Shown here piece by piece: positions 31,895-63,915 of a stretch of 64,000 nucleotides of DNA. A program made the translations under genes and the position numbers. The stretch spans positions 15,187,387-15,251,386 of the forward strand of contig OU612069.1 in NCBI GenBank assembly GCA_914767715.1, given 5' to 3'. The notes beneath the pieces were generated by a model. It was not told the DNA's origin and did not search any database. It saw only the letters and a program-made list of their open reading frames with translations. Source of the stretch: Membranipora membranacea (lineage: Eukaryota; Bryozoa; Gymnolaemata; Cheilostomatida; Membraniporidae). Numbering within the stretch: position 1 is the stretch's first letter; each line of letters begins with the position of its first letter.

Positions 31895-33100
31895 GCTCTC
31901 TGAGGGATGCTCATCCTTCTGGATCTGGGTCATTTAGTGCTCTGAGGTATCCTCTTCCTTCTGGATCTGGGTCATTAAGCGTTCTGAGGGCTGCTCTTAC
32001 TGCTGGATCTGGGCCATTAACTGCTCTGAGGGCTGCTCTTACTGCTGGATCTTGGCCATTAACTGCTCTGAGGGCTACTCTTACCGCTGGATCTGGGCCA
32101 TTAACTGCTCTGAGGGCTGCTCTTACTGCTGGATCTGGGACATCAACTGCTCTGAGGGCTGCTCTTACTGCTGGATCTGGGTCATTAAGTGCTCTGAGGG
32201 CTGCTCTTACTGCTAGATCTGGGTCATTAAGTGCTCTGAGGGCTGCTCTTACTGCTAGATCTGGGTCATTGAGTGCTCTGAGGGCTGCTCTTTCTGATGG
32301 ATCTGGATCATTTTGTGCTCTGAGGTATCCTCTTCCTTCTGGATCTGGGTCATTAAGCGCTCTGAGGGCTGCTCTTACTGCTGGATCTGCGCCATTAACT
32401 GCTCTGAGGGCTGCTCTCACTGCTGGATCTGGGCCATTAACTGCTCTGAGGGCTGCTCTTACTGCTGGATCTGGGCCATTAACTGCTCTGAGGGCTGCTT
32501 TTACTGCTAGATCTGGATCATTAAGTGCTCTGAGGGCTGCTCTTACTGATGGATCTGGGCCATTAACTGCTCTGAGGGATGCTCTTACTGATGGATCTGG
32601 GCCATTAACTCCTCTGAGGGATGCTCTTACTGATGGATCTGGGCCATTAACTCCTCTGAGGGATGCTCTTACTGATGGATCTGGGCCATTAACTGCTCTG
32701 AGGGCTGCTCTTACTGCTGGATCTGCGCCATTAACTGTTCTGAGGGCTGCTCTTACTGATGGATCTGGGCCATCAACTGCTCTGAGGGCTGCTCTTACTG
32801 ATGGATCTGGGCCATTAAGTGCTCTGAGGGCTGCTCTTACTGCTTGATCTGGGCCATTAACTGCTCTGAGGGCTGCTCTTTCTGATGGATCTGGGCCATT
32901 AACTGCTCTGAGGGCTGCTCTTACTGATGGTCCTGGGCCATTAACTACTCTGAGGGCTGCTCTTACTGCTGGATCTGCGCCATTAACTGCTCTGAGGGAT
33001 GCTCTTACTGCTGGATCTGGGCCATTAACTGCTCTGAGGGATGCTCTTACTGCTGGATCTGGGTCATTAAGCGCTCTGAGGAGTCCTCGCTGAAAGTCCG
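31895..33100. repeat. 42-bp coding minisatellite, ~28 copies
   Basis: The period is 42 bp (14 codons), so both strands stay open for about 1 kb. Units differ by a few substitutions. The minus strand is preferred as coding because it joins in frame, through a splice acceptor at 33,126, to the Cys-core exon. The plus-strand frame has no such connection. Confidence 0.9.
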
Positions 33101-35823
33101 ATTGTCTTTTTCTCATTGTTCCTCTCTTTCAAAGAAAAATATTTATGTATAGGCATTGAGTATCTATGGTCTGCACTTCAGGTATAAAAACATTGAACAT
33201 TACTACACAAACATATGTCACAACATTTCTCAGTAATACATTGCATGTTACAATCAAAGCTTGGACGTGTACATATTGGGAAGCTCATTTATACGGCTTA
33301 TATTAGTTCAATCGAGTAAAATGTAGACAGTTTTCTGAGCTTGAAGCTTTGAGTGTGATTTTAAAGTGTTATTTTATCGATCAAGTGAATGAAGCATAGG
33401 AAAACGGAGCTGAAAGGAGCTTAACTTGGAACTGGCTCATCGCAAGTAACAAATCATTTTTGATTCAGAATTATTTTTGTATTTTGACAGCTCACCTATA
33501 TCAATATCTAACTCTTTTTGGCAAGATCACTGGAATTTTGTATGCATTTTGTGACTTAAATTAAGATTAATCAGCTTTCGAGCGCCTACTGATTTGAAAA
33601 AAAAAACATTTTAATTGACTGCAAAATCTCAGGTGATGTAATTACTGAATCTTAGATTTAAATATACAATAAGTAGTTTTCCTATGCTGCGCAGGTTAAT
33701 AAGTTTCAAATTCAGAGAGGACAACTCCAAGATAGGCTAAAATTTCAGCTCAGAAAACTTTCTTTTTACTGTTAATTACCATCAATTTATCAAATGCATG
33801 TGTTTTATAAATAGAGACAACAGATTGGATAAACATTATGAGTCAAAATCATCCAAGGGAAAGATGAGGGTACAAAAGTTGAGTCCCTCTCCTCATTACA
33901 ATAGACCCCCATACTAAAAGCGCATGACATTGGACAGCCTCGAAATCATCGAACTAAATTTGAGACTAAGAACTTGACTGTAGGTGGTTACTCTTACCGT
34001 GGCTTTATCACTGCCAGTGCTACAGTAGACAGTCATACAAACAACACATGATTCACTTGTATGGTCTGAGCATACCCCCTCACATTCCTCACATTCTGTA
34101 GCCCTTCCGCTCTCAAACACTGACTGTATCCTTTTGTTTATAAGGCCAGCTGCTCTAGATTCATCAGCGACATACTTGGCTGTGATTAAAAACAACACAT
34201 TTAATAAAATACTTATACCAATACTAACTTGGGCTGACATGAAAATTATCTTGAAAATAGAGTCTTATTACAGTCCTCGTTTCTTGTCCTTGGAACCCAG
34301 TTCAATGTTTGGATAAGTTTGACAGTAATTCATCTTCTCAGTCTAATAAAATGGTTGCATTTTTCTTGCTTTGATATGAAACATATGGTTAAAATTATTT
34401 ACTTGAACTACATTCACTCCGATTTGATTGTTGTATATATTGAGGCATTATTAACGAATTGTTTTCCATTTGAGCGAAGAAAGTCAATGAATCAGAGGCA
34501 AATTGACAAATTGACGTTAAACTACTGCTGCCACTCTGGCAGATTTGTGCTCATTACATTCAGTATAGCTTCAAGATTACTAATTGAGGCTTTAATATCA
34601 GAGTTATCACCTTGTGGGCAAATAATTTGCACAGACTACTCTTCAAATTCAAGGTATGAAATCAACACACTAGATGAATAAATATCATATTAGCCTACCT
34701 ATTATTTTTACTAGTATCTATGCCAGTGATAAACAGGCTATCAGAAATATTTTTAAAGATTGTGCTGAACTTGGTATTGAGTATCACAACATAGATTCAC
34801 ACTTTTAGAAAATAACTGAAACACTTGCCATCAAATACATAGAAGACGATGATCATTTCATTAATGAATTTTTGAGAATGGGGCAGAGACAGTTTTATTT
34901 TTGTTCATGTCTAATTTCATACCCTGATTTTGGCAATCAGTTTGTGCAAATTACTTGCACATTAGGTGACAATGCTGAGATTGCAGCCTCATAATATTAG
35001 TTTTGAGCTATACAGAATTCAATAAGCATACATTTGCCTGTATGGCAGCGGTGGTTTAAGGTGGTTGAATACATATTTTCTAATCTCTATAAATGTTTCC
35101 AGGTTATTTTCATATCAAAAAGGCATTTGTAAATGTTAGTCAACTTGTGAAGAGACAATCTTTCCAAAGGGATAGGTCCCTAAGTGCACAACTGCCCATT
35201 TTTATTAGACATAACATTAAAGTGTGGAACAAATTCATGATCTTTTTAGTTAGCGAATTTTGTTATCACTGAGATCAATACTTATGGTGCAGCTGGACTC
35301 TGGTCATCCTCTCTAAATTAAATTCAAAATTTTGTTTTTAATTTTTTCTCACATGCCTTCATAAATAAATTGAATCCTGCTTGTCACAGACATTCACATC
35401 AACAATGTTTGAAAATTTCTAATCCATGTTTTACAACCAAAGTTTTTCACACATGAACAAATTCAGCACCAGATCAAAAGTTATGTCTTGACATTTTTCT
35501 GATTGGATTAAACAGAAATCAGATACAACTTGAGCTGAAAGGAAAATTATTTTGAAAATAGAGTCCTATTACAGTCCTCTTTCTTGTCCTTGGAATCCTG
35601 TTCAATGTTTGGATAAGGTTGACAATAATTCATGTTATCAGTCTAATTTTAAACTTGTGACAGAGAGTAATAGGTGCCATTGGTAAGACGCTCCATCAAT
35701 TTAAGCAAATATCATCCGCCTGACAACAGCCAAACTCCTAATGTAAGCAAATCACTCACCAAGTCCACATGATATGCAAGGTATCAGCACACAGATAATG
35801 AGAAAAACTTTAACAAGCAGCAT
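31911..35823 (-). CDS. Cys-core secreted precursor C1 with 14-residue repeat tail
   Basis: Exons on the minus strand are 35,760-35,823, 33,998-34,179 and 31,911-33,125, all GT-AG with phases 1 and 0, giving 486 residues. Exon 1 is a clean signal peptide (MLLVKVFLIICVLIPCISCG) with A at -3 of the ATG. Exon 2 encodes a helix-like stretch (DESRAAGLINKRIQS) and the six-Cys core C-x2-C-x3-C-x7-C-x2-C-x4-C (CEECEGVC, then CVVCMTVYC). Exon 3 begins in frame with RGTMRKRQSDFQRG, containing a basic cluster, then about 28 repeats of 14 residues such as LRAVNGPDPSVRAA. The terminal TGA may itself be a mutation, since repeat-like sequence continues after it. It would be a secreted protein. Function unknown. 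The exon 2 to exon 3 link is inferred from phase, acceptor and paralogue layout. Confidence 0.65.
33326..33762. mobile_element. Foldback MITE, second copy (in C1 intron 2)
   Basis: The left end GACAGTTTTCTGAGCT and an inverted right end ending AGCTCAGAAAACTTTC match the termini of the element at 17,470-17,977. Internal blocks such as GAAGCATAGGAAAAC are also shared. It lies wholly in intron 2 of C1. Confidence 0.7.
34180..35759. other. C1 intron 1 with direct repeats
   Basis: A block of about 125 bp at 34,215-34,345 recurs at 35,525-35,650 (shared CAGTTCAATGTTTGGATAAG-like core), about 1.31 kb apart in direct orientation. A coding-looking stretch at 34,713-34,890 on the plus strand (SDKQAIRNIFKDCAELGIEY, then a stop, then IKYIEDDDHFINEFLRMG) is not recognised and may be a transposon remnant. 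Confidence 0.5.
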
Positions 35824-38590: not shown

Positions 38591-38599
38591 TTACATAAG

Positions 38600-39990
38600 T
38601 TGGTAGAATATTCTTAGATCAGGTCATTGTAATTGTCAAGCATGTTTGATGTGTTTGGCCTTATCAGAATGAGATACAACACGCAGTGGAGCACATGCCA
38701 CTACACAGCTGACAGGTCATCTGCTAGTACAAGCCCTCAGTACAGTTTCACGCATGCACAGGCTAGGAGGCTTATTATTCAATGTTTAACAGTTGTTTTA
38801 CGCAGACCGGATGATTACACGCCTACTTCCTTAGCCAAACCTGCACAGCTAAATTTGCACATAAATCAGAACACTTGCAATACGCTAATACTCAATTTAG
38901 TGAAAAGTCTGATGTTAGATGCGGGTGTGCTCCTGATTTCAGGTATAAAGACATAATCCCTACACTATCTAACTTCGAGCCGTTTGCCTATCCTCAACTC
39001 TTCCTATCAGATAAATCCTTTGAAGAGGATATCGACATTTCAAAGATATTCTGCTGGTCAAACTATGTGAGTGTGATTATCCCAGTCTAAAAGCTATAGG
39101 ATTCTTACTCATTTCAGAGCAGCTCATACTTGATCCACTTTTATAAACATAGCAATGTTTAAAAACATGGGTAAGAGAAAAATAATTTTTAATTAATTTC
39201 AAGTTGACAAAGAAAATGACTCTCAGAGGCCAATATTTCTTGTTAACTGGCCAAAATCCACTCTCTGGTTGTATCCCTAGTTCATATGGTATAGATGATA
39301 CAACTCCGGTTATGTTCTTGTCTGCTTAAATTTTAGCCAATATTTTTGTAGTTGACATTATATAGGTGTTACTCTTATTTTGAAGCATATAATGAGCTGT
39401 TTTAAGGCCTCCTCTGGAACTTATTAGCTAAAAAATACACACCAGAGGATGAGGTGCTTTATACAAGATGATGTAATTACTGCACAAGAACAGCCCACAT
39501 AGTACCTCTGATTCCGCATTGAAAAGTGTTAGCACCAAAATTATTATTTCAGAATAATAATTATGGTGATGATCATGACTTCAGAGTCAATTAAGCAAGT
39601 TATTCTCAAGAACATAATTTTTACCTGAAAAGGACAAGAGTTCTTAAGGATATTCAAGCCCCAGTGCTCTGTGGAGTGAAGAGTTATATGACCAGACAAT
39701 AAAAACACGGGATCATTCCACATGCTACTAATGATTGATCGTTAAAAAGTGTTATTACCAAAGTTATCAATTCAGAATTAATCAAGCAAGTTTCTCAAGA
39801 ACATAAATGCGACATCCATGTTTACCCGACATGTTTAATGGAAAAGGATCAGAAGAATAAGGTCATTCAAATGTATGTGAGAAGTTAAGTATAGTATAGT
39901 TTATACAACCAGACTATAAAAGCTGAGAGACAATCGTTAGAGTTTTTCTTCTTTTCTCTTTACTGTTACCGTGAATTTCTGGTGAGTGAT
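38600..39990 (+). repeat. Duplicated segment upstream of C2 (copy upstream of C3)
   Basis: This region matches about 52,120-53,560 in the same orientation, with anchors such as TTGATGTGTTTGG, CTCAGAGGCCAAT and GCTGAGAGACAATC. The duplication carries the promoter and signal exon, so C2 and C3 are sister copies. Confidence 0.75.
39915..39922 (+). promoter_or_regulatory. TATA box of C2
   Basis: TATAAAAG inside the conserved block CCAGACTATAAAAGCTGAGA, which also occurs upstream of C3 and, as CATAAAAG, of C4. Conservation across paralogues supports a core promoter. Confidence 0.65.
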
Positions 39991-40580
39991 TTACGTACAT
40001 TAGGGATCTAGGGGTTGTTAGGCTGTCAACAATATAAGGCATTCATCCCAGTGAGCCAGTGACCACTATATTACCCTTAGTACAGTTGCTGATGACTGAT
40101 AGCGCCCCGAAACAATAGTAAATCAATTCTTGAGCTGGAGTCCACCTGAATTATGTTGTTTATGTTTCATGTTGTAAAAATGTGCTCTGTAGATTTACAA
40201 ATAAAAGATGCTTTCTAAAAAATTGTTGAAAAATAAAAAGTATAAGTATCTAAAAAAATGCCTCATTATAAAATTTGGTACAGAGTGTTCTGAAACAGAA
40301 CTTCCGGCAGCTCACTCGCTGTTTGGGGATGATTAATTAAAACTGGGGAGGAACAAATTTACTAGCAAATTTAAATATAAAGTGTGGTCAAGAAAAAAGT
40401 TAGTTATCGCTGTGCGGTAAAGGATTTTTGCTTGCGAGTAGATATTTGATCACAGTTCATTCAAAAACAAACAACAATACACATTGTTGACTTCATGGAA
40501 AAAATATTTTTGTTTCATCTCACAGCACAGCTAAAGAGAAATTATGCGCTGGCAAGGGATATCATTGATGAGATGGAGAG

Positions 40581-40738
40581 AGGATATGGTAGAGGACTGG
40601 AGAGAGGATATGGTAGAGGACTGGAGAGAGGATATGGTAGAGGACTGGAGAGAGGACTGGAGAGAGGACTGGAGAGAGGACTGGAGAGAGGACTGGAGAG
40701 AGGACTGGAGAGAGGACTGGAGAGAGGACTGGAGAGAG
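40581..40738 (+). repeat. 12/24-bp coding minisatellite (Arg-Gly-Leu-Glu)
   Basis: Three 24-bp units GGATATGGTAGAGGACTGG-AGAGA are followed by about seven 12-bp units GGACTGGAGAGA. The period keeps the frame. Smaller, more varied versions occur in C4 and C5. C1 and C3 have none. Confidence 0.95.
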
Positions 40739-40859
40739 AGATAGCTACAGGGTGTGAGGAGTGTGAGGAGGTATGCTCATGTGTTATTTGTATGACTGTC
40801 TACTGCAGCACTGATGAGGATGAAACTGCTGTAAGACTAACTAATGTTTAAAGTATTCA

Positions 40860-41780: not shown

Positions 41781-41814
41781 GTTAGTTAGAAGAGAGCGGC
41801 CTTAAAAAGTCGGA

Positions 41815-42800
41815 TAGGGGGAGGCGGGGTACGTTGAGCAAGTTTTTACATATTTTATTGTAACATGCAGTTGAATTGTGCCAGATTAACAAAAATTGGC
41901 ACTGAAATTGGTCTTCATGTCTTCCATCAACATGAATGAGGTCAGAAACCTATTGCAGTTAGAAAAGGAAATATTGCTGTTTCAAAAAGAAACGTGAAGC
42001 GGCTCAACGTGCCCCAAGCACGGGGCACGTTGAGCCGGGTCCGAATTTTAAATGGTGCACGTTGAGCCACTGTGTTATGGTCATCTCTTTGCTGGTGATA
42101 ACTTTTTAATTCATTGCAACCATAAGAAATAAAGGAAAGGAACCAAATTCATTGCAAGAGCGCATTTTTTCACTCAAGTGAACTATAGAATATAATTCGC
42201 AACACAAATAAATCTCTTAAATTTTTGCGGTAGAGGAAAACTTGCACACGGCAAACTTGGTGATAAGTGAAGGGAAAAGTGAACTCAGAGTAATTGCTGA
42301 CTTCATTAAAGAAACATCAATTGTAATGTTTTTGTTTTTGTGTACATATATTCATATACACTTTCATCATATAATATTCATATACTTCGGAGCATGGCTC
42401 AACGTGCCCCAACGGGCATGGCTCAACGCGCCCCAACAGCCTGTTTTTCACTTTCAATTCAAGTTCAACAAAATCTCTCCATCAGAGATAAGTTTAGATT
42501 ATGTGATTTTGAGACTAAATATGATGTTATCACATAATAAAAGTTGCAACTTCTCAGTCACGCCTTGTTGGGAATAAATGACATTTCCGTCGATTGGCGC
42601 ATTATTTACTTTTGACGCTAAAAACGATGAAAAACTAAATAATTCTCTTCCCTTAGTAGCTATCTTTCTTTTTGTCTGCTTAAAAAGGGTGCCTTTGGTC
42701 ACATGACCTCTGATGGAGGGAAAAACTCAAAACATAAAATGGTATTTGAAATAAGTGTGGTGGATCAACATGCCCAATGGCTCAACGTGCCCCGCCTTTA
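41815..42800. mobile_element. Pogo-type MITE inserted in C2 last exon
   Basis: The body is 41,817-42,798 between TA dinucleotides. The left terminus has GGCGGGGTACGTTGAGC and the right terminus, inverted, has GGCGGGGCACGTTGAGC. A 15-bp box GGGGCACGTTGAGCC or its inverse recurs inside near 42,001, 42,022, 42,054, 42,396 and 42,420, likely transposase-binding sites. No transposase frame is present. The termini resemble those of the Tigger-like element ending at 4691. Confidence 0.85.
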
Positions 42801-42829
42801 CAGATGATGCAGAAGGCTGATTGATTGAT

Positions 42830-45540: not shown

Positions 45541-45542
45541 TA

Positions 45543-48500: not shown

Positions 48501-51500
48501 GTATTATCCACCAATGCTCTGTCCTCATCGGATGTTACAAAGAAAGTCATGTTTCTGTCCCGACAAGGCGCTCTGGTGGTAGGTGTTGATGCCATTCTTG
48601 TTGATGTGGGCGTTGTTTGGGTGGTAGTTCTGGCTAAAAGTGGAGAAAAATGTTTGTCGTCTACACCACAATATATTGATGAAATTTAATGTGTCAGGTA
48701 GGAAAGACACATTCAGGCAAGTGCAGGATGGGTGATGAAGTACTAATAATATCTGGTTGAAATCAACTTAGGCAAGTTTGGGATTGAATCCTAGTTACAT
48801 GTTAAACAAATATGATAATGGAGACCATAACAAAGTGGATCCGTGACCTAGCTCTGTACATCAAGAATGACTGTGACATTATTGCAGGGTACATAAAACT
48901 AGTGCTAAATTATTTGCTTTTATACTGACCTTTATTTATTACCATAACATTTATTGAACAGTTGCCTTTGTAAATCACATGGCTACCAACGGCAAGTCTA
49001 GTCTTTATATCAGGTGTTATCTCCACTATTGCTCTTTCATCATCAGAAGTCACATGCAGTGTCATGTTTTTGTCCTGACAACGTGCTCTGGTGCTGGTTG
49101 TTGGTGAGGTAGTTGTTGGTGTGGTTGGTCTTGGTGTGGTTGGAGTTGTCAGTGTGGATGTAGTTGTTGTTGTGGTAGTTGTTGGTTTGGTTGTAGTCGT
49201 TCGTTTGGTTGTTGTTGGTGTGGCTGTTGTTGTCGGTGTGGTTGTAGTTGTCGGTTTGGTTGTAGTTGTCGGTTTGGTAGTTGTTGGTTTGGTAGTTGTT
49301 GGTTTGGTTGTAGTTGTTGGTGTGGTTGTAGATGTTGGTGTGTGCAGTTGTTGGTGTGGTTGTACTTGTTGGTGTGGTTTTAGTTGTTGACCTGGTACTC
49401 AATTTGGGATCTACAGAGTTAAACAGTAAATTTGTTGAAGAGAATTGAAACCCTAGGTAAAAGAATTGTGTAGTCATGCTAAGGAAATAATATGCCTCAT
49501 CCACTAAAGGACGCAACGTAAGTGGCAACAATGTCGGTCATATCAGGTATCAAGGGCGCCCAGTCATGTTCTTCTTTATAGTTTGATTATTTTGAGTTAC
49601 GTTGGAGTTATTTCTTTATGTGAGCGAAGCCATGCAACATTTAACAAGAATCAAACTGACATTTTATCTATCATGCGGTATATCATTCAAACATAGTCGG
49701 ACAAATAGTAATAAACAGTAATGCCACTAAGTTCAATATGGGGAAAACAAGAAAAAGACAGCATTTATGATACTGTATACTCACATTTAAACTGCTGGAT
49801 TCTTCTGCGTTGTCCGACGTACAGAGAGTGATTAGTGAGAAGCAGAGAGGTGGGTTCGTACAGACAGCCTGAGCAGAGATCCAGTGTGGTTACTCTATCT
49901 GCGTTGATGTCTACTAGTTGGATCCTATTGTTGTCCCACTCAGCAACAAGTAGTGCCTGGTTACCTATGAATACAAGGCCATGTAGCCCTTTGAAAGGAG
50001 AGTTTATGAGAGAGCTGTCTGTGTAGCCGTTATACCTTGAGCCTGAGATCAGTGTGATTCTCTTATCTTTGTGTGTGATACTGTAGAGAGCCCGATTTGC
50101 ATTTATTACATACAGGTCCCTGTTGTCATCTTGTGTCAGCTGATAGATAGACGAGAGAATGTCAGACTTAACAAAAGTACCGACAGCCTCATTGTGAATA
50201 TCCACTGTCCTCACAGCATTGTTATTCCGGTCAGTGACAAGAAGCCTGTCATCATACTTGTCTCTTATTACATACTGGGGACGGTTGAACTGACCGGGTT
50301 GACCTTCTGAGTCTCCTGCTGTCCCACACTGTCCTGAGAACACTGAGGTGAGACCTGTGTGACGGGCAATCACTCTCAGACAGTGATTCTCAGTGTCAGC
50401 TACAACTACATGATTAACTGCGATCTGTGTGAATCCATAGATAACACTGAACAGAGCCTCAGATCCGTACCTCTCTCTGTATCCACTCTCTGTAGTACGC
50501 CCAGCTATGAGGGTAGATGACGTACCATCGCTGGTCTTCAGTGAAGACTGGGCCGTGTAGATTATGTGATCTGGTCTGAAGAGATCGATCTCCATGTGCC
50601 AAACATACCAAGTGCTGGTGGTGACGTTTATAGCTGTAGATCTCTCCAACCTGTAAGATTGATATTATTAATTAAAAGGATTATTCTGTTTAATTTCATC
50701 TCATTATTCGAGTAATTAGTTGACAAGAAAGTTACAGATTTGGGAAGAAAATGTTTTTAAATTCTAATTCAAAAGAAAGGAGTTTCTGCATGTGCTAATT
50801 TTAAAAACACTTTTTTAAATTTATGAATTGCAAAATTTCTGTATTTGATGATTTAGTTGCTGTGTATTAATAAACTGGTGAATAAAATATCACAGAAAAA
50901 GCTTTTTTTCACACATTGATCACCAATGAAGAAATGAAACTATTTCCAAACAATCGAAATTGAATACACGCACGCATCAATTATACAAAAAAAGTTTCCA
51001 ACTCAATGAATCATAAGAAAACCAACAGCTCAAACCAACAGTAATAAAGTATTACAACTCACAAGCAGTTCCTTTTTGAACCAATACTATCATATGACTA
51101 GTTCACCCAGCGTGGCCTATCCTGAATCTGATATTTCTAAATGAGGGTTTTCTAGCGTGGAATTTTTCAATATTTTTAAACTACTATTCTTTATCACAGC
51201 ATTCTGGATACGTGTATTGTATAGACCTGTCACTGGCGGAAAATAACTCACCAATCAACTAGAGACTGTGTATCCTGATCCATACACCATACAGTATTCA
51301 GAGTCAGACACCATAACACCTGTCAAAATACTATCCTTGAATCAATTTGTTAGAAGAGAAGTTACCAAGGTGCTTTAGGTTCGGTAGAGAGGAGAATTCC
51401 TATAGAAAGGGGAAACTGATCCACCATTGACACCCATCGAATTAGATTTGTGTCAGGGTTAAAGCAAATTATACTGAAAATCTCAATTACTATAATAATA

Positions 51501-52092: not shown

Positions 52093-52119
52093 AGAGATTA
52101 CACAGAGAGACACCAAGTA

Positions 52120-53480
52120 TTCTAGAACATTCTTAGATCAGAATATTGTAATGTACTGTAAATAGCACTCATTGTTGATGTGTTTGGGCGTATTAGAATG
52201 AGATCAAACATACAATAGTACACATACCACTGCAGGACTCATGTTGTAATCTGCTAATACAAGTCCTCAGGACATTCTCACATTATTGGTAATGTTACAT
52301 TAACAGTATGTATTTTTTGTAGGAACATGCACAGCCTAGGAGGCAGCTAATTATTCAATTTTTCACAGTTTTTTATCGCTGTCCAAACGACTGTATGTTT
52401 ACTTTCTTAGTCAAAACCTGCACAAGTTAGTTTACACTCAAATCAGAAAACTCACAATTCGCAAGTTACCCATCCCTACTGTCATAATTATGTCAATACT
52501 CAAATTTGCACCATAGATCAATTCAATGACATGTCAGACATCTGGATTCAACCCTTTAGATGTTGATGTGCATCTAATTTGAGTACATTATCCCTTCTCT
52601 GCCTACCACCCGGTCAGAAGGTTGCTTATTTCCATCAGATATTTCCTTCGAAACGGTTCATACCTAGATGCCATACACATTCACAAAAAAATGTTTTAAA
52701 CAATGTTTATGGGTATGGAAAAGAGGAAAATAAATTTTGGCTTCGGTTCGACAAAGAAAGTGGATTCTCAGAGGCCAATGTTTCTTGTTAACTTTCTCTG
52801 GCCAAAGTCCACCCTCTGGTTGCGTCTTGAGCACAATCGGTATAGATGACACAACTCCAATTATGTACTTGTCTTCTTAGGTCTTGGCCAATATTGTTGT
52901 AGTTAACAATGGGAATGTGCGATTCTAGTTTTCAAGTGTTTAATGAGCTGTTTTAAGGCCTCCTCTTGAAATTATCAGCTAAAAAATATGCTTTATGCAA
53001 AGCGGTAACAATTCAAAAAAATTCCACACCCTACTAAAGATAGATCATTGAAAAGTTTTATTACTAAAATTATCGATTCAGAATTAATCAGGCAAACTTT
53101 TTCAAGAGCATAAATTTGACACCCACGTTTACCTGACATGTATTGAAGTATAGTATAGTTGATACAACCAGACTATAAAAGCTGAGAGACAATCTGCAAT
53201 AATAGTGATAACGAATGAATCAAAGAATGTATGAATGAACCTTTATTGTCGCAATGCTGCATGTGAAATAAAATGGTGAAGATAATTATGATTTCAGGAT
53301 CATTCAAGCAAGTTGTTTTCAAGAGAATAATTTTACCTGACTAGGACCATACTTATAAGGTACAAGGTCATTTAAAGGTCATTCAAGCATCAGTTACCAG
53401 ACTGATACAACCAGATCATAATATAACATCTAAGGCACAATATATAACCCACCATCTGGATGTATCTACTGAGCCGGTGA
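52120..53480 (+). repeat. Duplicated segment upstream of C3
   Basis: It is the counterpart of 38,600-39,940. The promoter-proximal part is itself present in two related versions, and their order is reversed relative to C2, which points to unequal exchange or conversion. Confidence 0.65.
53174..53181 (+). promoter_or_regulatory. TATA-type element upstream of C3
   Basis: TATAAAAG in the same CCAGACTATAAAAGCTGAGA block as C2. Here about 315 bp of extra sequence separate it from the ATG. A decayed second version (CCAGATCATAATATAAC) near 53,410-53,428 lies closer to the ATG, so the functional core promoter is uncertain. Confidence 0.5.
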
Positions 53481-53495
53481 CACAAGACGGAGAAA

Positions 53496-55950
53496 ATGCT
53501 GATGGTTAAAGTTTTTCTTGTTTTCTTTGTACTGTTACTGTGAATAGCAGGTGGGTAAATTACATACATCGGGAAACTAGCGGTTGTCAGTCTAGGAATT
53601 GTTGTATATCGTGATAAACAGTAAAAATTTCAATTGTGTATTGTCTTGTATGCTCAGCTATCAATATCTCAATTGATTTTGGAAAGGGTGAGAATTCTAT
53701 ATGGATTCATCCCGCTAGTTAGTTTCCACTATGTCAATGATTCCACTCTGCACAGATGATTCCCAGAGACAATTGCGAATTTCCAGTTGTCAGAACCAAG
53801 GTCAAAAATTAATTATGGCTGAATGTCCGTGAAAACCTTTACTTGTTGCCAAAAATTTAATTAAAAGTTATACAACATTGTTACATTTAATTATACGATC
53901 GTTGATTTGTTTTGATATCTTCTTATGTTAACCTGGTTGTATAATGTCTCGGAGTTATTTAATATGATAAGCCTTCAGATACACCAACAAAAAAATAAAT
54001 GAAATTTACAAGATACAAGATACAGCTACAAAATTAACCTACCAAAAATAATTAAATGTGTTTCAAAATGATGGTTGAATGTGTTTTTTTACACGACAGC
54101 AAGGGATATCCTTGATGAATCCAAAAGTGCTGCTGGCTTTATAGGCAAAATGATACAGCCAGTGTTGATGATAGAAATAGATACAAGATGTGAGAAGTAT
54201 GAGGGGGTATGCTCTGATCAGACAAGTACCAATCAATGTGCTGTGTGTACTATTGTTTACTGCAGCACTGATGAGGATGAAATTGTAGTAAGAGTTACCA
54301 ATGTCCATGTTGTTGATAATGAAATCAGATTTACAGATTTACAGATTTATTTATAATCCACTGTTAGAATACCCTGAGGTATTAAATAAAACAGTTAGCG
54401 AGCTCAAATCCATGATGGGACACTATCCCTTAAGCGTCCTTTTGTCTTTAGATGAGGTTGAAGGTATTATGAATCCATCTGAAGTGGAAAAATTGTATTG
54501 GTAAATATGTAGCTAGATCAGCTGTTGCAATGCAAGTTGTCTCTCCAAAACTCATGAGATATTTATATAATTCTCGCAATGATTGTGAACAGTTTCCCCA
54601 GATAAGCTAAAGAGAGAGATTGTTTTATTGCTTGTCATCAATACTGAAGCAAAATTATAGTGACTGTAAGAAGGCGTTATCATTTAGGAGTCTGATACTA
54701 AAAGGTATGAAACTGTTTAAAAAACAAGTTGAGCGGCACTTAGCTGATAAAAATGTTCTCCTACCTGGAACATAATGTTTGTTAAAAATATGGTCTTCGT
54801 CATTAATAAAATTTACTGCAGTACTAAGAGTTCGGTCTGAGATCAGATTAGGAATGTCACAGCTGTATGAGGTAGAAAAAGGAGATAATAATCGAGATCT
54901 CTACTTTGCCGTGCAAGAGTTAAACCAAACTTCTGAATTATATAATAAAATCGGTAATATAAGGGATTGCACAAAATACTCACATTGAGTATTGGACGAA
55001 TAAAAAGATTTGAACTTAGACAATGCATAAAACCTGCTTTTCTATCTGCGAAAAATGTGGTCGGCATTATCAGTCCATTTTAAATCATCATTGAAAATAG
55101 TACCCAGATACTTAAAACATTGAACTTTCTCTACTGGGTTGTCATCAATAAAAACATTAGAAGTGACTTCCTGGGATCTACTGAAGTCAAAGGTCATCTC
55201 CTTGGTCTTGGCGGTATTCAGTATAAGACAGTTAGCTTTGCACCATTCGGAAAAATCATTTACGGCTTTAAAATAAAATTCATCACTACTGCTATGATCC
55301 AAAAGACCCAAAATAACCATGTCATCAGCATACTTATATATCCTTATGTTAGGGTGATCAGATTGAACCGTGTCAGTGTAGATGGAAAATAAAAATGGAG
55401 ATAAAACTCACACCTGTGGGCAGCCAGTACTACTAGGTAAAATATCAGATTTATGACTGGAGATTCTAAATATAAAGCAGACATTCATGTAATACATGCA
55501 TACAAATGCGGCATATTACTAGGGAAATGTCCAGACATGACATAGAAAGTGTTCACTCACTCACAGCTTAAAATGAAATGTACAATAACCTCCCCGCAAA
55601 CATCGGGATTTTTACTATTCTCTGAGTGTTAGCGCCAATCAAGTATGAGTAACTCATGTTTTTCGCTGCTAGTTTATGCTGGATCGCCACACCTAATTCC
55701 TTCTGATGGTACTAATTGAATTGAATTAATCCATAACATTATGTTACGTAATGTTATGTTATGTTACGTTATGTCCATGTAACATTAGATCACATGATTA
55801 ATGTATAACGCTTAAACTTTCATCTTCTTTGTTATTTAGGAGAGAGCAGCCTTAAAAAGAGTATTCTACACAGGTTATGGATATGGTGTGCCGGGCGATC
55901 GAGGCAGACAAAATGCAGGGCTAGGAAAAAGAGGCTTTTACATTGGCTAG
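53496..55950 (+). pseudogene. Cys-core precursor C3 with Tyr/Gly peptide, TGA in signal
   Basis: Exons are 53,496-53,550, 54,100-54,287 and 55,840-55,950, GT-AG, phases 1 and 0, 118 codons in total. Exon 1 starts MLMVKVFLVFFVLLL and then has an in-frame TGA (53,541-53,543), where C1 and C4 encode Cys, followed by a normal donor. Exon 2 has no RGLE repeat. It reads ARDILDESKSAAGFIGKM and a core in which the second Cys is Tyr and the third spacing is eight (CEKYEGVC, CAVCTIVYC). Exon 3 encodes ERAALKR, a YTGYGYG stretch, then NAGLGKR and GFYIG. GKR is the usual cleavage-plus-amidation signal of animal peptide precursors. Intron 2 contains a LINE fragment. The TGA makes a normal product unlikely. 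All other features are intact. Confidence 0.65.
54650..55445 (-). pseudogene. LINE reverse transcriptase fragment in C3 intron 2
   Basis: Minus strand, with one degenerate G-C-P-Q motif and stops: VLSPFLFSIYTDTV, then KYADDMVILG (catalytic box), then FSEWCKANCLILNTAKTKEM, KVQCFKYLGTIFNDDLKW, SRFYALSKF, and at the end FLNSFIPFSIRLLNDN. This order covers reverse transcriptase motifs 4 to 7 and the extreme C-terminus. It is 5'-truncated and inactive. The family is not the same as that of the LINE at 1949-3204. Confidence 0.85.
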
Positions 55951-57421
55951 TCGGAAAAAGGGAGGAGTAGAGAATATAAAACCCCTTATTGAAAAACTTA
56001 TGATGTAATAAGAATTTCATAGCTTCTCATGTAACTGTTCTGTGTTCAATTATAGCTTACTGTTTTTGTAACGATGAATAGTCAGTAAAGAAATTATTTA
56101 TTATCAGTTTTTAGATTTAATGACAATACATTATATATAACAAATTTACATGTTACTTCATGAACTTTTTAGGTTTTCTTTCATTCTATCAATTTTTAAG
56201 TGGCCAATGGCTCTGTGCTCTGCGTCCTAAGTGAGCCTACCCATGCATTGCCATGCCATAGATACAGATATAACAAGATATCTGGACAGGATTAGGTGCA
56301 AACCAGATTTCTGTCCGGATAGCTATTAATGTAGCATACAACCCTGGCACCACTAGACATACATCCACTTGCAATTTGCCTTCACAGATAGGCAACATAC
56401 TCAAAAATACAACTCATATGAGCTCTGGTTCTGCACCACAGGGCACTCAGCAACCTCAAAGACCCAATGGCTGCAAAAAAATAAATTATATTGGGAAGCT
56501 ATGTTTTGTTTTAATCTCATAGAAAAGCGTAATTCCTTTTTATCGGACGCAACAGTATTGTTCTTGCAGATGATTTTTCAATTGACATGACTGTTCACAT
56601 ATTGAGATTAAAACAAACAAAAGATAATTGCTTCAATTCTAGAATCAAATAGTTTAACATCAACTTTTTCGAGCAATGTATTTATTTCGAGAGTATTTAC
56701 ACTTGGCCAGTCATATTGGGTATGCCTGTTACTGAAGCAAAATGGTGGAAGAGAGTTTGCAATTAAAATAATTAAAAAAATAAAACATGCAAATTTAGAA
56801 GGAGTACATCATTGTGCATCAAATATTGAAATATAAGTTTTGTGGTTGTCTGCTACTTTAAAGCATCTCTCCAAGGCCACTAATCTTTGTAACCAATTAT
56901 TGAGGGAAGTAACAGTGGGTTGTGTCCAATTTGTTTTTCTTTCTCTATGTTTTTGCATATTTTATTGCTGAACCACTTAAGCATCACATCTTTGTCATGG
57001 TTATCTTGATCATCTAGTTTGTAAGTTGTATTCGAGTTAACATATTTTATTTTCGCTTAATTTAGTTCTCAAACTGTCAGTTTCTGATTTCTTGTGAATA
57101 GATTTTGATATGTTATTCCACCAAATATTTTTGTTGGTCACTTATAAATTGATGGTATGAAAGAAGAGGTATGCTTAAAACTTCCTGAAGTAACATGTAT
57201 TAAATGTAAGTTATTAATGTAGTTTTATTAAATTCAATCTTGAAGGTAAAAATTACATTATTTCAATAACATAATACTGTCAATTGATACAATACCAGTA
57301 AGCTATAATCAAATACAGAACATCAAAAGCTAAAAATAAAATATTAGTATACATATATATTCAATTCTTAGTAACTCATTGGCTCACATTAGCTACACAT
57401 CTCTTCATTGATGACTCATCT
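55951..57421. other. Intergenic; start of the C4/C5 duplicated unit
   Basis: From about 56,200 onward the sequence matches 62,310 onward. No gene is recognised between C3 and the last exon of C4. Confidence 0.45.
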
Positions 57422-58752
57422 TTAGTATCCGCCATACCAAACACGCCTTTTTAAGGAGGGCACATAACCTCTTGTTAAAGCGACTCTCTTCTAAACAACA
57501 GATCGAATGAATGAATGAATGAATGAAAGGTACTTCACCCTATTCAAGTGATATATACTATTGCATGTATATTGCTGATCCAAAGAGCATAAATTAAAAT
57601 TTGTAGCTAAAGTGCCATCACAAGGAATAAGCTGTGGCATAAATTATGGGCGGGTACTCATTCTAAATTGGCTCTAACAATCACAGAAACATATCATAAT
57701 AGTGAAAATCCTGATGTCATTATGGAGGTAATTGGTACTTTTAGTCTGAATTATGAATGAGTAAACATTTTAAGACCCTTTACGATTCATTTCCCAACAC
57801 TTACTTATAAGCTGCATTCATTTGCAGTGCATGTGCTTCAGTGCATCTAGGAAAACTGTCTATACATTCCTTGCAAGAATTTTATAATTATCTCATTTGA
57901 TTTTAAATAAGACTAAATTAAAATAAGATAATTAAAATCAAGATAAATTTGTCCTCTTGCAACAGCTGCATTTTCCCACATGTTAAAAAAAGAATTTAAA
58001 TATATATATGATGACACATAGAGAATAATGTCTCACCACAAAGTAAGTTATAAACATTATCAACAACAGTTACTCTTACCGCAGTTTCCTCCTCCTCATC
58101 AGCACTGCAGTACAAAGTCATACAAACAGCACATGAGGTACTTGTTTGATCAGAGCATACCCCATGAAACTCCTCACAACATGAAGCCATCTCTCTCCAG
58201 TCCTCTGTCGAGTCCTCTCTCCAGTCCTCTACCATACCACAATGCTGTCACATAAAACGTAAAAAGAAAATATTTGTTCTTCTTTAAACTCAACCAACTC
58301 AAGTTTTATTCATTCTTGTATAGACTTTGAATGACTATCTACTCTGAATGATTTGAATTGATATTTTGGCAACAAAAAAGGTGTTCAGATAATTATTTAG
58401 TTGCATCCAGCCTGCTTGATGCAATGCCACATATCATTTTCAAGATGCTCTGGGATAATTTGACAATGAAAATTACTGTTTTATAAACTCAAGAAAGTTT
58501 TTTTTTCGTTTTAGTGCCTTTCTCAGTGCATAACTATAACTATATACATATATATGTATATGTATATTTTTTATTTATTTGCATTTGCCATCATCCGAAG
58601 ATGTTTTCCCTGAAGTGCAAAACAAAAATAAGAAACGGCCAATACAAAGACAAGGGAATAAATTTTCTAATTCTAACTGATTGAGTCTGCTAGAAAACAG
58701 TAACCCTTCCTCTTTATGCTTTTTTGCGTAAATCACTCACCTGATGTACATG

Positions 58753-61700
58753 GTAACATTCATAGACTTAATATACTACCTAGAGAGGCCAATTGCATTC
58801 AATATTGTCCGACTTAAATAGCACGACATGACGCAATTAGTTTGTGCTGTGAGCCATAGTTTACTATATTATACCATTCAGTGGAATAATGTGAAAAATC
58901 AAGGGATGCTGGGCACGATATCAGCCCCTGTTCAGCCCCTTATTATTCAAACACAAAGAAAATTGGTGAGTGTATGTAAAAGACCTTTCCGCACGAGCTG
59001 GTATTCATAATTTGTCTAACCAGAACTTTTTATGATAAGAAGAAATCATAAGCCAATAAACATTGAATACAGCCATTTCCCTCAGCACTTCCATCACTAC
59101 TATAAAAATGTAAAGAATACCTATAACACAAGATCACAAATATGTTGTTGGATGAGCCAGATCTAAGCACCAGCACCACCACAATCTTCATTTTTTTCCT
59201 TTAAACTCTTCGTAGTTGTGACTAAACACGACCAGTTTGCACAAATTGGTTTACTTATTTTAATGTCGCTTCGCAAGGAAGAATGGATCTGTGCTGTTAA
59301 ATGAGTATGCAAACTACTGAGAGCTGTTGTTCCTGAGTACGTATGTTGAAGCTAGAGTATGTAACAACGACTTAAAATTATCATACTTCAGTACTGTAGT
59401 CAAAATCTAATAACCTTTACCGTGGCCAAACTTAATTTTGCCTTTGCCAGTAAGGTTCTTTGAGTTTATAAATGTGATATCGGCGTCAACAGTGAATGTC
59501 TATTGCCTCCCCGACCGTTACACAGAAACAGCAGCATGAAAAAAAAAGTTATTACTGAGATGTCTAAAACACTTTTTAACAAAATTGTGTCCGACGAAGA
59601 CCATCCTCTTTTTAGTTGTGTTGTTTTCAGCTGTGCAAAGGTATCCTCTCGTCTAAATACCATCTATCGCCCACCAAAGTGCAGGACACGAAAGCTTTTT
59701 CCATACTACATGTCAGCTCACAACAGAATTTGAAATGTTCATTTTCATTTTCAATCTTTTCACCTGATGATACAATGATTGTTATAATAAGCCAAACCTA
59801 ACCAGAACATGTCATGATCTGTGAAAATGGAACTACATGTAATGATGAAACTCCAGAGGAAAAAGGATGGAAGCAGTGACTCCAATAATTTCCAAAACTG
59901 GAAAATGAAATACCGTGGCTAAACTTATTTTTGCCGGTGCCGGTAAGGTTCTTTGAGTTTTTGAGTTTATCAATATGATATCGGCGTCAACAGCGAATGT
60001 CAATTCGAGTGATATTTGAAAAGTACAATTCCTGTAATGATCATTATTATTATTCTTATTGTTACATTTCCATTATTCTTATTCAATAGTTAATAATTCC
60101 CATACAAAATATTTCAGCTTCGATCTAGGTGGAGCCCTGCAGATATCTCCATACTTCTCAAGATAGTGCAGCGCACTCAACAGTCATTTCTGTATAATTG
60201 ACAATGTCTCCTTACAGAGGGATTTTTTATTCATTGCTAAAGGGATTGTTGCTGCTCATTAATTCAAAAGCTTCTCAGGCTGTCTAAATAAAGGGTTCAG
60301 AAACGTTATTTTGTGGCTCAGACTGGGTTCTATACTAATAGCCTTCATTCATACTAAGCCTCAGCTCATACCATCAAAAATTTATTGCAAGCTGCGGAGG
60401 TTTGTGCCTGTGAGCAGCTGTGATGCATATGAGCACACAACTCTCGGCTGAGTCAAACAAGAATGCTTGTGATCATTGGGCAAGCAATTGTTTTCCAGTC
60501 TTGGAAATTATTAGAATCACTGCTTCCATCCTTTTTCCTCTGTAGTTTCATTATTACAGTAGTTCCATTTTTCTGTAATAACTACTTTTTTTCACACTGC
60601 TGCTTCTGTGAATAGGTCAAGGAAGCAATTGACATTCAATGTTGACGCCGATATCATATTGATAAACTCAAAGAACCTTACCGACATCGGCAAAATTAAG
60701 TTTGGCCACGGTAAAGGCCATTAGATTTTGACTACAGTACTGAATTATAATAATTTAAAGTTATTTTCACATACTCTAGTGTCATCATACGTACTCAGGA
60801 GCAACAGCTATCTGTAGTTTACATACTCAATTTACAGCACAGATCTATTCTTCCTTGTGGAGCCACAATCAAATTTGCAATCAAATTTGAGCTGACTGGT
60901 TGTGTTTAGTCACAACTAGGAATAATTTTGAAGAAAAAATCAATGATGGTGGTGGTGATTAGATCTGGCCCATCCAACAAAATATTTGCGATATTGTGCT
61001 ATAGGTATTCTTTACATTTTTATAGTGGTGATGGAAGTGGTGAGGGTAAATGGTTGTATTTATTTCAATGTTTATTGGCCAATGATTGTATCTTATCATA
61101 AAAAGTTCCGGTTCTGGGGACAAATTATGAATACCATCTTGTGCGGAAAGGTCTTTTACATACACTCACCAATTTTCTATGTGTTTGAATAATAAGGGGC
61201 TGGACAGGGGCTGATATCATGCCCAGCGTCCCTTGATTTTTCACATTGTTTCACTGAATGGTATTTATAGTAAACTATGGCTCACAGCACAAACTATACT
61301 CCATCAAGGGTTAACCAGGGGAAGGCAATTTCTAATTTATTCATGATCTGTACTACTCACCCTTGTAACATTTATTATTTGTCAATCTTGAATAATCTCG
61401 GCATTGAATAAGAGTGATGACAATGATTGATGATCAAAATTAACTAAGCAATGCCAAGATTAAAATTATTTTCCTATGTAGTTGAGAATTTCTGCATTTC
61501 TGAATATCTCCATTGTTGATCATAGTCCCAAAAAAAAGGTTGCAGGTAAAAAGCCAAATGAATTATTTTAGCAAATTGAGAGCAGATAACTCCAAATTTA
61601 TACAGCCCATTGTTTTTTATATGAGTGTGAATCCGTATGAAAAGTATATAAAAGTGGTTCAATAATGTGAGTGGCACTTAGGTGAGTTGGGGGAGTCTAT

Positions 61701-61893
61701 TTTACACACCCATGCAGAAAACTCCATTCAGTCAAATGAATTTAAGCTTTATATATACCACTTTTCCATCCCCCTATCAATCCTTGACCCAGTATAGTTA
61801 CGTCATGTTGTGCTATTTAAGTGGGACTTATTATGATCGGTGAAGCATAGGCATTGTTCTGTCTAGAAAGTATATTAAGTCTATGGTAACATT
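58753..61893. mobile_element. hAT-like foldback element, copy 2, inside C4 signal exon
   Basis: The body is 58,761-61,885 with perfect 8-bp duplications GTAACATT at 58,753-58,760 and 61,886-61,893. The ends begin CATAGACTTAATATACT in inverted orientation. The internal sequence matches copy 1 (28,517-31,099) throughout. It is longer only because a 494-bp MITE sits in its right arm. A frame at 59,503-59,733 corresponds to the small frame in copy 1. No transposase. Confidence 0.9.
61297..61794. mobile_element. 494-bp MITE nested in hAT-like copy 2
   Basis: This segment (61,299-61,792) is absent from the matching position of copy 1. It is bordered by TA on each side, and its ends are imperfect inverted repeats around TCAAGGGTTAACCAGGGG and TCAAGGATTGATAGGGG. 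TA borders fit a Tc1/mariner-type MITE. Confidence 0.7.
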
Positions 61894-61992
61894 ACACATA
61901 AAACAAGACTGACTCTAACGATCAGCATTTTCTTCTTGTTGTGTTACAGGCTGAGTAGTTATATCCAAATGGTGTAAGAGATTGTCTCTCAG

Positions 61993-62000
61993 CTTTTATG
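61993..62000 (-). promoter_or_regulatory. TATA-like box of C4
   Basis: CATAAAAG on the minus strand in the conserved block AAAAGCTGAGAGACAATC, 65-70 bp upstream of the C4 ATG. It corresponds to TATAAAAG in C2 and C3. Confidence 0.55.
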
Positions 62001-62049
62001 GTCTTGTTGTATAAACTATACTATACTATACTACTGAATGACCTTATCA

Positions 62050-63102
62050 GGTTAGCGCAGGTGTCAAATTTAAGTCCTTGAGAAAACTTGCTTAATTAAA
62101 TCTGAAAAGATATTTCAATAATAACACATTTCGATGATCAGTCACTAGTACTGTGAGGAATGTTCTTTTATAGTTTTGTTATTAAGCAAGGGATACAAGT
62201 ATTGTACCGTTAACATTCAAGTTTTAAACACAGGGTTACTTTCCTTCCAATTCATCAAAGACAGCACTTTCAATCTCTGTGCGGTAATCTAAGTTGTCTT
62301 CTGCTGCAAAATACTATGCTCTGTGCCCAGTGAGCCAACCCAATGAAGCAAAAATCACATAATTTTGTCAAATTAACTATACAGTAATAGATAGAGAAAT
62401 AACAAGATGTCAGGACAGAAATAGCTGTGAACTATATGTCCGGTTAGCTTGTTATTACTGCATCTCTCCAGGGCCACTGATCATTGTTACCAAATATTGA
62501 GAGAAATATCAGTGGCTGATCAACACAACCTTGTGTTTTGTTTTACTTTGTCTACACATTTGCATACATTATTACGAAACCATTTTAACCATGCATCAAA
62601 GCGATCACATCTCTGTCATAGTTATTTTGATCATCTTGTTTGTAAGTTGTATTTAGGTTAACTTATTCTTCTTTTGCTTTATTTATTTCTCAAACTGTGA
62701 GTCCCTGTTTTCTTGTGAATAGATTCTGATTTAATGTTCCATCAAATATTTTTGTTGGTCACTTATAAATTGATGGTATGCAAGAAGAGCTATTCTTAAA
62801 ACTTTGTGAAGTAACATGTAATAGAAGTAAGCTATTAATATGTAGTTTTATTACAATTCAATCTAGAAGTGAAAAGTTATACTATTTGAATTTCATAAAA
62901 CTGTTAATTGTTACAATATCAGTAAGCTTTAATCAAAAACAGAACTTTAAGCAGCTTAAGATAAAATATAAGTATATACATTCAATTCTTAGTAACTCAT
63001 TGGCTTCTCAATAAGTGCTCTCACATTTGCTACACCTCTCCTCATTGACGAGTCGAAGTTGTTGCCTCATGTTCCGAGCCCTCAATCACCCATCCATCTT
63101 TA
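62050..63102. other. Intergenic part of the C4/C5 duplication
   Basis: The segment from 62,440 matches 56,870 onward. No additional exon supported. Confidence 0.45.
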
Positions 63103-63915
63103 TCATCTCTTATATCCCTTATATCTCTTATAGCCATAATAGGCATTATAGCCATATCGCTTTTTTAAAGAAGCCGCTCTCTTCTAAATAACAGAACAAA
63201 TGAATGTGAAGCTGCTTCACACAAATCAAGATATATACTATTGCATGTATATTAGGCAATTAATTAATTCATTCATTCAATTAATGTAGCTTGAGTACCA
63301 TCATACTGGATGAGGCTACATAAATTATGGGCAGGTATAATTGGGTAACTCATACTAAATTGGCTCTAACAATGACAGATTACAGATATTCATGTCCCAT
63401 CCTTAATAGTAGACTGCACCCATTTGCAGGTACAACATGGATGTGTGCTTCAGCATATCTAGGGAAACTGTTTACAATTTTTGTTTTCTCGTTAATGATT
63501 TTTAAGAAGATAACTTTGTCCCCTTGCAACAGATCCATTTTACCACATCAGTTGTGAAAAAAAGAATTTAAATAGCCTCAATTTTATATAATTACAAATG
63601 AGGAATAATGTCTCACCACAAGGAAAATATAAATACTTCAAATATTAGTTACTCTTACCGCAGGTTCATCCTCATCAGCGCTGCAGTAGACACTCGTACA
63701 AACAGCACATGAGTTGCTTGTTTGATCAGAGCATGGCCCAACACACTCCTCACACCCTGTAGCCATCTCTCCCTCCAGTCCTCTCTCAAATCCTCTGTCA
63801 ATTCCTCTCTTCAGTCCCAGTCCTCTGCCCAGTCCTCTCTCTAGTCCTCTACCATATCCTCTCTCCATCTCATCAATGATATCCCTTGCCAGCGCATGAT
63901 TTCCTTTTAGCTGTG
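63103..63915 (-). CDS. Cys-core precursor C5 (signal exon beyond window)
   Basis: Exons 63,659-63,915 and 63,103-63,183 (minus), GT-AG, phase 0 between them. The first begins in phase 1 after an acceptor at 63,916-63,917, so a signal exon to the right of the window is expected by comparison with C1-C4. Exon 2 encodes ALARDIIDEMERG, a diverged RGLE region (RGYGRGLERGLGRG), and a complete core CEECVGPC, then CAVCTSVYC, with exactly the C1 spacing. Exon 3 encodes KRAASLKKR, YGYNAYYGY, KR, YKGY, KR and stop, so short Tyr/Gly peptides are bounded by basic pairs. No lesions are seen in the part present. By analogy it would be a secreted precursor that is cut at basic pairs. This is inference. Confidence 0.7.

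Follow-up and report, generated by a model that had tools for sequence, protein, structure and literature searches.

A clustered gene family pairing an acidic six-cysteine core with divergent basic last exons, and its possible role as a set of secreted precursors

Introduction

Cathelicidin genes, which have four exons, encode a constant, cysteine-containing pro-domain and, in the last exon, a highly variable antimicrobial peptide. Here we describe a gene family, five loci of which (Ca to Ce) lie in a 64,000-nucleotide stretch of contig C5 (the window, meaning the whole stretch of DNA that was analysed), in which an exon with an acidic six-cysteine core is followed by a basic last exon that diverges abruptly after a short common start. 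Judged from sequence, the family may be a cluster of secreted precursors whose core carries and neutralises a cleavable, antimicrobial-like tail, a reading whose chances we put at a little under even.

Nicomicin precursors are described, in the passages cited here, as consisting of a signal, an acidic BRICHOS proregion, a dibasic site and a cationic C-terminal peptide, with the cathelin-like domain as the vertebrate counterpart, and the C-terminal cationic peptide of the polychaete BRICHOS precursors (nicomicin, arenicin and capitellacin) also varies between members (PMC6265681). Myticalins are presented in the cited part of their description as a multigene family with a variable Tyr-containing cationic product, an acidic pro part, a Lys-Arg site and pseudogenes, the product being central, the acidic part C-terminal and the second intron 3' of the product (PMC5577615). 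The Hydra arminins are characterised in the cited excerpt by a conserved acidic N-terminal part and a poorly conserved basic C-terminal part (PMC4820302), and conotoxin genes, in theirs, by mainly three exons, a mature-peptide exon that is the most divergent and transposons nearby, with the remark that the three exons may not correspond to three domains (PMC10561478).

The present family differs from the myticalins in that its basic tail is C-terminal, and a six-cysteine core goes unmentioned in the excerpt on arminins (PMC4820302), whose cnidarian host is disfavoured here (see below). In conotoxins the cysteine framework belongs to the variable mature peptide, whereas here the constant exon encodes it. 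With BRICHOS precursors the family shares, at the level of sequence, an acidic cysteine-containing proregion, a basic site and a basic C-terminal tail, but there is no BRICHOS match, the core is about 30 residues long with six cysteines and the putative product has an exon of its own. As in cathelicidins the variable peptide is in the last exon, although here it varies between subfamilies and little inside them, and the family is unlike cathelicidins in having no cathelin match in Pfam, three exons and a far smaller pro-domain. The closest systems in mode of action would be the BRICHOS antimicrobial precursors and the cathelicidins, with an apparently unrelated core.

A clustered family with a predicted three-exon plan

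A tblastn search of the window with the core detected all five loci that an earlier note on this DNA had proposed, with matches between copies at expect values (E) of about 2e-11 to 1e-16. In the source genome (339,339,785 bases in 18 contigs) a search with the core at E up to 1e-3 gave 12 places, which all fall within 117 kb of contig C5 (15,221,360-15,338,401), and a second query, taken up to E 1, gave the same 12, with four rows covering the initial part of exon 2 in four of these copies. The family size of five given in the earlier note was therefore too small, and the seven copies outside the window are called C6 to C12.

The plan of the family is a signal exon ending in phase 1, an acidic six-cysteine core exon ending in phase 0 and a last exon which starts K/E-R-x-A-x-L-K-R and diverges abruptly afterwards. 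Exon 1 ends in phase 1 in Ca (64 nt) and Ce (55 nt), the donor GTAAGA stands 3' of the core in all five window copies, the length of exon 2 with its split codon is divisible by three in four of them (Ca, Cb, Cc and Ce), and exon 3 continues in phase 0; the three-exon plan with phases 1 and 0 that had been claimed for every locus holds to this extent, while Cd is off by one and the plan is broken in Cb, Cc and Cd. The cysteine spacing claimed for the core, C-x2-C-x3-C-x7-C-x2-C-x4-C, is exact in Ca and Ce (two of the five), with deviations in Cb, Cc and Cd. An acceptor of the form TTAG/[AG]AGAGAG is present in four of the five window copies (the exception being Ca), and K/E-R-x-A, the start proposed for the last exon, was likewise found with the subsequent divergence in Cb, Cc, Cd and Ce, Ca having RGTM instead. 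The spacers read KRAALKSR in Cb, ERAALKR in Cc, KRVALTR...SLKRR in Cd, KRAASLKKR in Ce and RGTMRKR in Ca. A motif made of the acceptor, [KER]R.[AGVT] and a dibasic pair occurs three times on the two strands of the window, each time 3' of a core on the same strand; its pattern was drawn up after its three copies had been seen, and Ca and Cb escape it. The last exon of Cb was located by collinear flank similarity, and the signal exon of Ce lies beyond the window at contig C5:15251751-15251805. The Ca and Ce precursors, of 486 and 130 residues, have no internal stop, and in C9 the three exons are open one by one, not joined. Judged by eye, the first exons of Ca, Ce and C9 look hydrophobic. We infer that the exons form spliced transcripts and that the signal exon directs secretion.

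Segmental duplications, visible as stretches of 73-98% identity, underlie the growth of the cluster: Cb pairs with C6 (88-89%), Cc with C7 (93%), Cd with C8 (96%) and Ce with C9 (98%) and C11 (84-89%), and Cc with C10, at 93% over the 5' part, dropping to 76% near the last exon. The order Cc-Cd-Ce (plus, minus, minus) is repeated as C7-C8-C9 and partly as C10-C11, so that there are two complete units with three tail types each; over the whole cluster there are about five types of tail, which are alike inside a type. Ca, Ce and C9 are open in every exon (3/12). The broken window copies are Cb (without ATG, with a TGA), Cc (a TGA) and Cd (exon 1 interrupted by an element, exon 2 frameshifted), and outside the window C6 is broken by an exon 1 out of frame and lacks a last exon where one was expected, C7 by the frame of exon 2, C8 by an element in exon 1 (exons 2 and 3 being open), C10 in exon 1, by stops in exon 2 and at the acceptor, C11 by a stop and the frame of exon 2, and C12 by a TAA in the core. 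The second cysteine is substituted in Cc and in Cd, each of which is a broken copy. That so many copies are broken is reminiscent of defence peptides encoded by multigene families; for myticalins, three pseudogenes next to four potentially functional genes are given for one mussel genome in the cited passage (PMC5577615).

At eight places a TATA-containing block of 49 bp is nearly complete, with 47-49 of its bases matched at 90-100% identity; by position these places lie upstream of Cb, Cc, Cd, C6, C7 (3.4 kb away), C8, C10 and C12. Seven shorter matches were also found, some of them before Ce and C11. The Cb block is at contig C5:15227273, and the other seven are 90-98% identical to it, though the exons of the paralogues are less alike.

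Acidic cores and basic tails

Core and tail are opposed in charge: the net charge of the core is -5 to -9, while that of the last exon is +5 in Cc, +6 in Cd, +10 in Ce and +16 over 404 residues in Ca (Cb was left out of this count). Basic residues stand near the tail start in all five window copies (ALKR, LTR with SLKRR, SLKKR, MRKR, and KSR in Cb, which has no dibasic pair). Tyr and Gly, as well as basic residues, abound in the last exons of Cc, Cd and Ce; among overlapping segments that lack stops and have the length of the tail exon, the tails themselves included, the contents of Tyr plus Gly and of Lys plus Arg are both as high as in the tail in 0.17% for Cc, 0.1% for Cd and 0.004% for Ce. 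The nine short tails listed contain no cysteine, the cysteines being in exon 2, where a stretch of Arg/Gly repeats that is variable in length also lies (but not in Ca and Cc).

The sequences themselves establish the family and its clustering, the uninterrupted frames of Ca and Ce, the opposed charges and a basic site that aligns; from these features we infer splicing, secretion, cleavage and function along the following lines. Exon 1 would encode a signal peptide, exon 2 a carrier of variable Arg/Gly repeats and then the acidic six-cysteine core, and exon 3 a constant spacer ending at a basic, usually dibasic, site, beyond which would lie the subfamily-specific product (in most short forms basic peptides rich in Tyr and Gly, in Ca a polypeptide of 14-residue repeats). 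The core would probably neutralise the basic tail and help folding or export, a kexin/furin-type prohormone convertase would cut the tail free, and the likeliest use of the released tail would be an antimicrobial-like role in host defence. Basic sites of these types are described as cut by kexin/furin-type convertases in the passage cited (PMC6265681).

Divergence of the tails and possible constraint on the core

Among Cb, Cc, Cd and Ce the ungapped identity falls from 0.77 in the acceptor and spacer to 0.26 past the basic site, a drop that indels deepen, and all six pairs of tail proteins align no better than shuffles (233 to 975 of 1000 reach the score). Cd and Ce, whose tails have a gapped identity of 0.52-0.56, have an identity of 0.56 in the last exon compared to 0.76 in the whole intron, 0.83 in the 3' flank and 0.85 in the core, the tail being less alike than the intron (Fisher p 0.001) and the flank (p 2e-6). 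A second alignment with the nearest 400 nt of intron gave 0.52 for the tail, 0.61 for the intron and 0.85 for the flank (tail versus flank p 7e-7), and C8 and C9 gave 0.56, 0.69 and 0.85 respectively (p 2e-6 versus the flank). Cc against Cd and Ce gave last-exon identities of 0.56 (intron 0.49, flank 0.63) and 0.48 (intron 0.54, flank 0.59) in alignments that misalign the core, the sole excess being that of Cc-Cd against the flank (p 0.049). Inside a tail type, the tails of Ce and C9 are identical, those of Cd and C8 have an identity of 0.926 compared to 0.96-0.97 outside the tail (p 0.11), and those of C9 and C11 one of 0.684 compared to 0.82 in the intron and 0.76 in the flank (p 0.1 with both non-coding parts taken together, 0.03 for the intron). 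The tails of Cc, C7 and C12 look more conserved than their flanks, but these flank identities are unusable because the compared regions extend beyond the duplicated segments.

The proportions of nonsynonymous and synonymous differences per site (pN/pS) in the tails are 0.83 for Cc-C7, 1.97 for Cc-C12, 1.02 for C7-C12 and 0.67 for Cd-C8, the ratios with C12 being inflated, because the end of its tail probably does not share the reading frame of the others; the other four pairs give 0.28-0.86 in exon 3. Positive, diversifying selection on the tails was considered and is not supported; the ratios of recent pairs span 0.67-1.97, the highest with C12. "Hypervariable", the earlier description, fits the tails between subfamilies, where the excess of divergence is clear against the 3' flank and inconsistent against the nearest intron, while inside a tail type there is at most a weak excess.

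For the core the pooled pN/pS is 0.64, and the ratio of nonsynonymous to synonymous change (dN/dS, taken as pN/pS) is 0.35-0.41 between Ca and the other four window copies, Ca-Ce departing weakly from neutral (p 0.05). The separate comparison of core and tail that had been suggested gives some support for constraint on the core, mainly through Ca, and none for diversifying selection on the tails.

Alternative explanations

Several results weigh against a constant carrier with a varying tail product. Pairs among Cb to Ce have core dN/dS of 0.43-0.94, apart from a value of 5.9 that depends on half a synonymous change, and exon 2 of Ce and C9 differs by four nonsynonymous and one synonymous changes, so that the core constraint rests mainly on the deep Ca split; the AlphaFold model of the core is of low confidence (mean pLDDT, the predicted local distance difference test, of 48). 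The Ca tail is not rich in Tyr and Gly, dibasic sites are few in it and it has no provable homology to the other tails, and the Cc-Ce and Cc-Cd tails show no excess divergence, on poor alignments. The tail is not significantly less alike than the nearest 400 nt of intron in either Cd/Ce (p 0.28) or C8/C9 (p 0.06), and these two pairs are one ancestral split counted twice. In the assembly, which may contain sequencing errors, nine of the 12 copies are broken. The earlier carrier-and-product proposal is thus supported in part, by the acidic core, the basic tails with basic residues near their starts and the divergence of the Cd and Ce tails. The broken copies, together with recent pairs showing at most a weak tail excess and the intron comparisons just given, are what would be expected if the cluster had mostly decayed and the tail differences were drift and indels in weakly constrained or dead copies, but we consider this improbable given that the Cd/Ce tail is less alike than the whole intron and the 3' flank, that the exons of Ca, Ce and C9 are open, and that Tyr, Gly, Lys and Arg content is retained in the tails beyond alignment.

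The basic sites could also be those of neuropeptide or peptide-hormone precursors, in which KR and GKR sites would free signalling peptides and the cysteine core would be a spacer or a second peptide. GKR is a signal for amidation and cleavage, and the tails of Cc and C7 have GKR and short peptides flanked by KR, those of Ce and C9 reading KR-YGYNAYYGY-KR-YKGY-KR; however, both GKR forms are in broken copies, the net charge of the tails is high and strong tail differences among adjacent paralogues suit defence better than receptor ligands, which leaves such precursors unlikely. Secreted structural or adhesive proteins of matrix, mucus or cuticle, left uncut and cross-linked via Cys and Tyr, would account for the Tyr/Gly-rich tails and the tandem repeats in Cb exon 2 and Ca exon 3, and would go with the Thr-rich mucin-like and NHL-repeat open reading frames (ORFs) of the same window. 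They fit poorly with the shortness of Ce (130 residues), its basic site at the aligned position and the charge opposition of core and tail, and we think them unlikely too. Conotoxin-like peptides of a venom or secretory gland, with a constant signal and pro part and a variable mature exon, seem very unlikely, as here the constant exon, rather than the variable product, contains the cysteine framework, though three exons, a most divergent mature exon and nearby transposons are features of conotoxin genes in the cited description (PMC10561478).

A secreted, antimicrobial-like precursor family thus being the reading we prefer, a bolder version of it, which we regard as rather doubtful, is that the family is an independent counterpart of cathelicidins in a protostome-like invertebrate, in which a new acidic six-cysteine carrier would serve exchangeable products encoded by an exon of their own, that Ca swapped a short Tyr/Gly-rich peptide for its secreted 404-residue tail of 14-residue repeats and that the cluster spreads as a unit of three tail types. 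If true, the design of a constant carrier with a variable last exon, known from cathelicidins and BRICHOS precursors, would have re-evolved on an unrelated cysteine core, and segmental duplications of differing age, with intact and broken copies, would show the gain and loss of tail types. The short tail peptides are open to direct synthesis and testing.

Database searches

Profile searches of 5.8 billion proteins gave a single match, P0001, a 94-residue ORF 98% identical to Ca exon 2 (with a first profile, dominated by repeat words, scoring covered the 7993 candidates that had the most words in common with it, and with a second profile lacking the repeats 1376 candidates). Viral and prokaryote contigs held 30 and 36 pattern-matching stretches, none of them confirmed as relatives, and the best PDB match had E 0.38. 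A Pfam-A hmmscan of the Ce precursor and of the first 102 residues of Ca found no family up to E 10, the scan filters dropping most matches above about E 0.1; the earlier note had likewise recognised no known family with this core. No NCBIfam match was found for Ca; three weak NCBIfam matches for Ce (the best, flagellar FliH, at E 0.004) are in the repeat-bearing part and were dismissed as repeat noise. Six sequence motifs of the family had no match in the literature text searched. The family is small and orphan-looking, with no relative from another species in the collections searched, whose coverage of animal genes is uncertain.

The Ca tail matches HEAT (E 1.4e-6) and PapZ_C, the RapZ C-terminal domain (E 1.7e-12), in Pfam, no single stretch passing. 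These matches were not accepted as evidence of a HEAT protein: AlphaFold models helices, but with a mean pLDDT of 58 and a predicted template modelling score (pTM) of 0.15, and Foldseek gave no matches in the PDB. Elsewhere in the genome the tail has four weak matches (on contigs C3, C6, C7 and C11; E 1e-5 to 4e-4, 23-30% identity). Over the 27 units examined the in-frame pN/pS is 2.34, which is not read as selection because one antisense frame gives 2.69, and the stretch is open for 339 residues on the opposite strand too, so that its openness alone is no proof of coding. At the DNA level it is a 42-bp minisatellite of about 28 units (window 31911-33125), open on both strands, in which mismatches to the consensus over 27 units number 32, 31 and 10 at codon positions 1, 2 and 3, the third being avoided.

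Features of the window

Table 1. Loci of the family in the window and their parts (window positions; exon functions are predicted)
Locus	Feature	Position	Strand	Remark
Ca	Locus	31.9-35.8 kb	minus	
Ca	Exon 1, predicted signal peptide MLLVKVFLIICVLIPCISCGL	35760..35823	-	donor GTGAGT, phase 1
Ca	Exon 2, 61 codons, six-Cys core CEECEGVCSDHTSESCVVCMTVYC	33998..34179	-	donor GTAAGA, phase 0
Ca	Exon 3: RGTMRKR, then ~28 tandem 14-residue units (AVNGPDPAVRAALR)	31911..33125	-	404 residues, stop TGA
Cb	Locus	39.9-41.8 kb	plus	
Cb	Promoter-like block with TATAAAAGCTGAGAGACAATC	39887..39935	+	
Cb	Signal-exon remnant	39939..39981	+	without ATG, in-frame TGA
Cb	Exon 2, 102 codons: RGYGRGLE/RGLE repeats, core	40526..40830	+	six-residue deletion in core (long loop)
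Cb	Exon 3: KRAALKSRIGGGGVR, stop	41790..41837	+	
Cc	Locus	53.1-56.0 kb	plus	
Cc	Promoter-like block	53146..53194	+	98% identity to Cb block
Cc	Signal exon	53496..53550	+	in-frame TGA
Cc	Exon 2, 63 codons	54100..54287	+	Cys2 to Tyr, loop +1 residue
Cc	Exon 3: ERAALKR VFYTGYGYGVPGDRGRQNAGLGKR GFYIG, stop	55840..55950	+	
Cd	Locus	57.4-62.0 kb	minus	
Cd	Promoter-like block	61979..62027	-	
Cd	Signal exon, 5' half	61888..61928	-	interrupted by element; limits by eye
Cd	~3.1-kb element in signal exon	58766..61885		long nested inverted repeats, AATGTTACC at both flanks
Cd	Signal exon, 3' half	58741..58765	-	donor GTGAGT; limits by eye
Cd	Exon 2	58080..58244	-	repeats and core in different frames; Cys2 to Phe
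Cd	Exon 3: KRVALTRGYVPSLKRRVWYGGY, stop	57422..57490	-	
Ce	Locus	from 63.1 kb to beyond window edge	minus	
Ce	Exon 2, 86 codons: RG-rich repeats and six-Cys core	63659..63915	-	
Ce	Exon 3: KRAASLKKR YGYNAYYGYKR YKGYKR, stop	63103..63183	-	

The element of the Cd type also sits in exon 1 of C8, which places its insertion before the Cd/C8 duplication, and a relative (about 88%) lies at contig C5:15215898-15218483, that is at window 28512-31097.

The mitochondrial genome is contig C18, of 14,741 bp, in which both strands carry genes (the ORFs were identified by eye). Sponges, cnidarians and ctenophores use mitochondrial code 4, echinoderms code 9 and ascidians code 13. COX1 scored 814.9 bits with code 5, 809.9 with code 13, 789.5 with code 4 and 786.5 with code 9, and this best fit to code 5 disfavours a sponge, cnidarian, ctenophore or echinoderm, and less strongly (by 5 bits) an ascidian; the first three of these groups are the ones in which the earlier note had proposed to look for relatives.

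In the window, neither Rfam (at the gathering threshold) nor a tRNA scan gave a match. On the minus strand of the window, at 48910-50664, a Thr-rich mucin-like ORF adjoins a 299-residue NHL-repeat ORF, which has 69 relatives in the database at E of 1e-3 or less. Reverse-transcriptase ORFs lie at 1939-3042 (Pfam RVT_1 for 1939-2577) and, as identified by eye, at 55042-55407.

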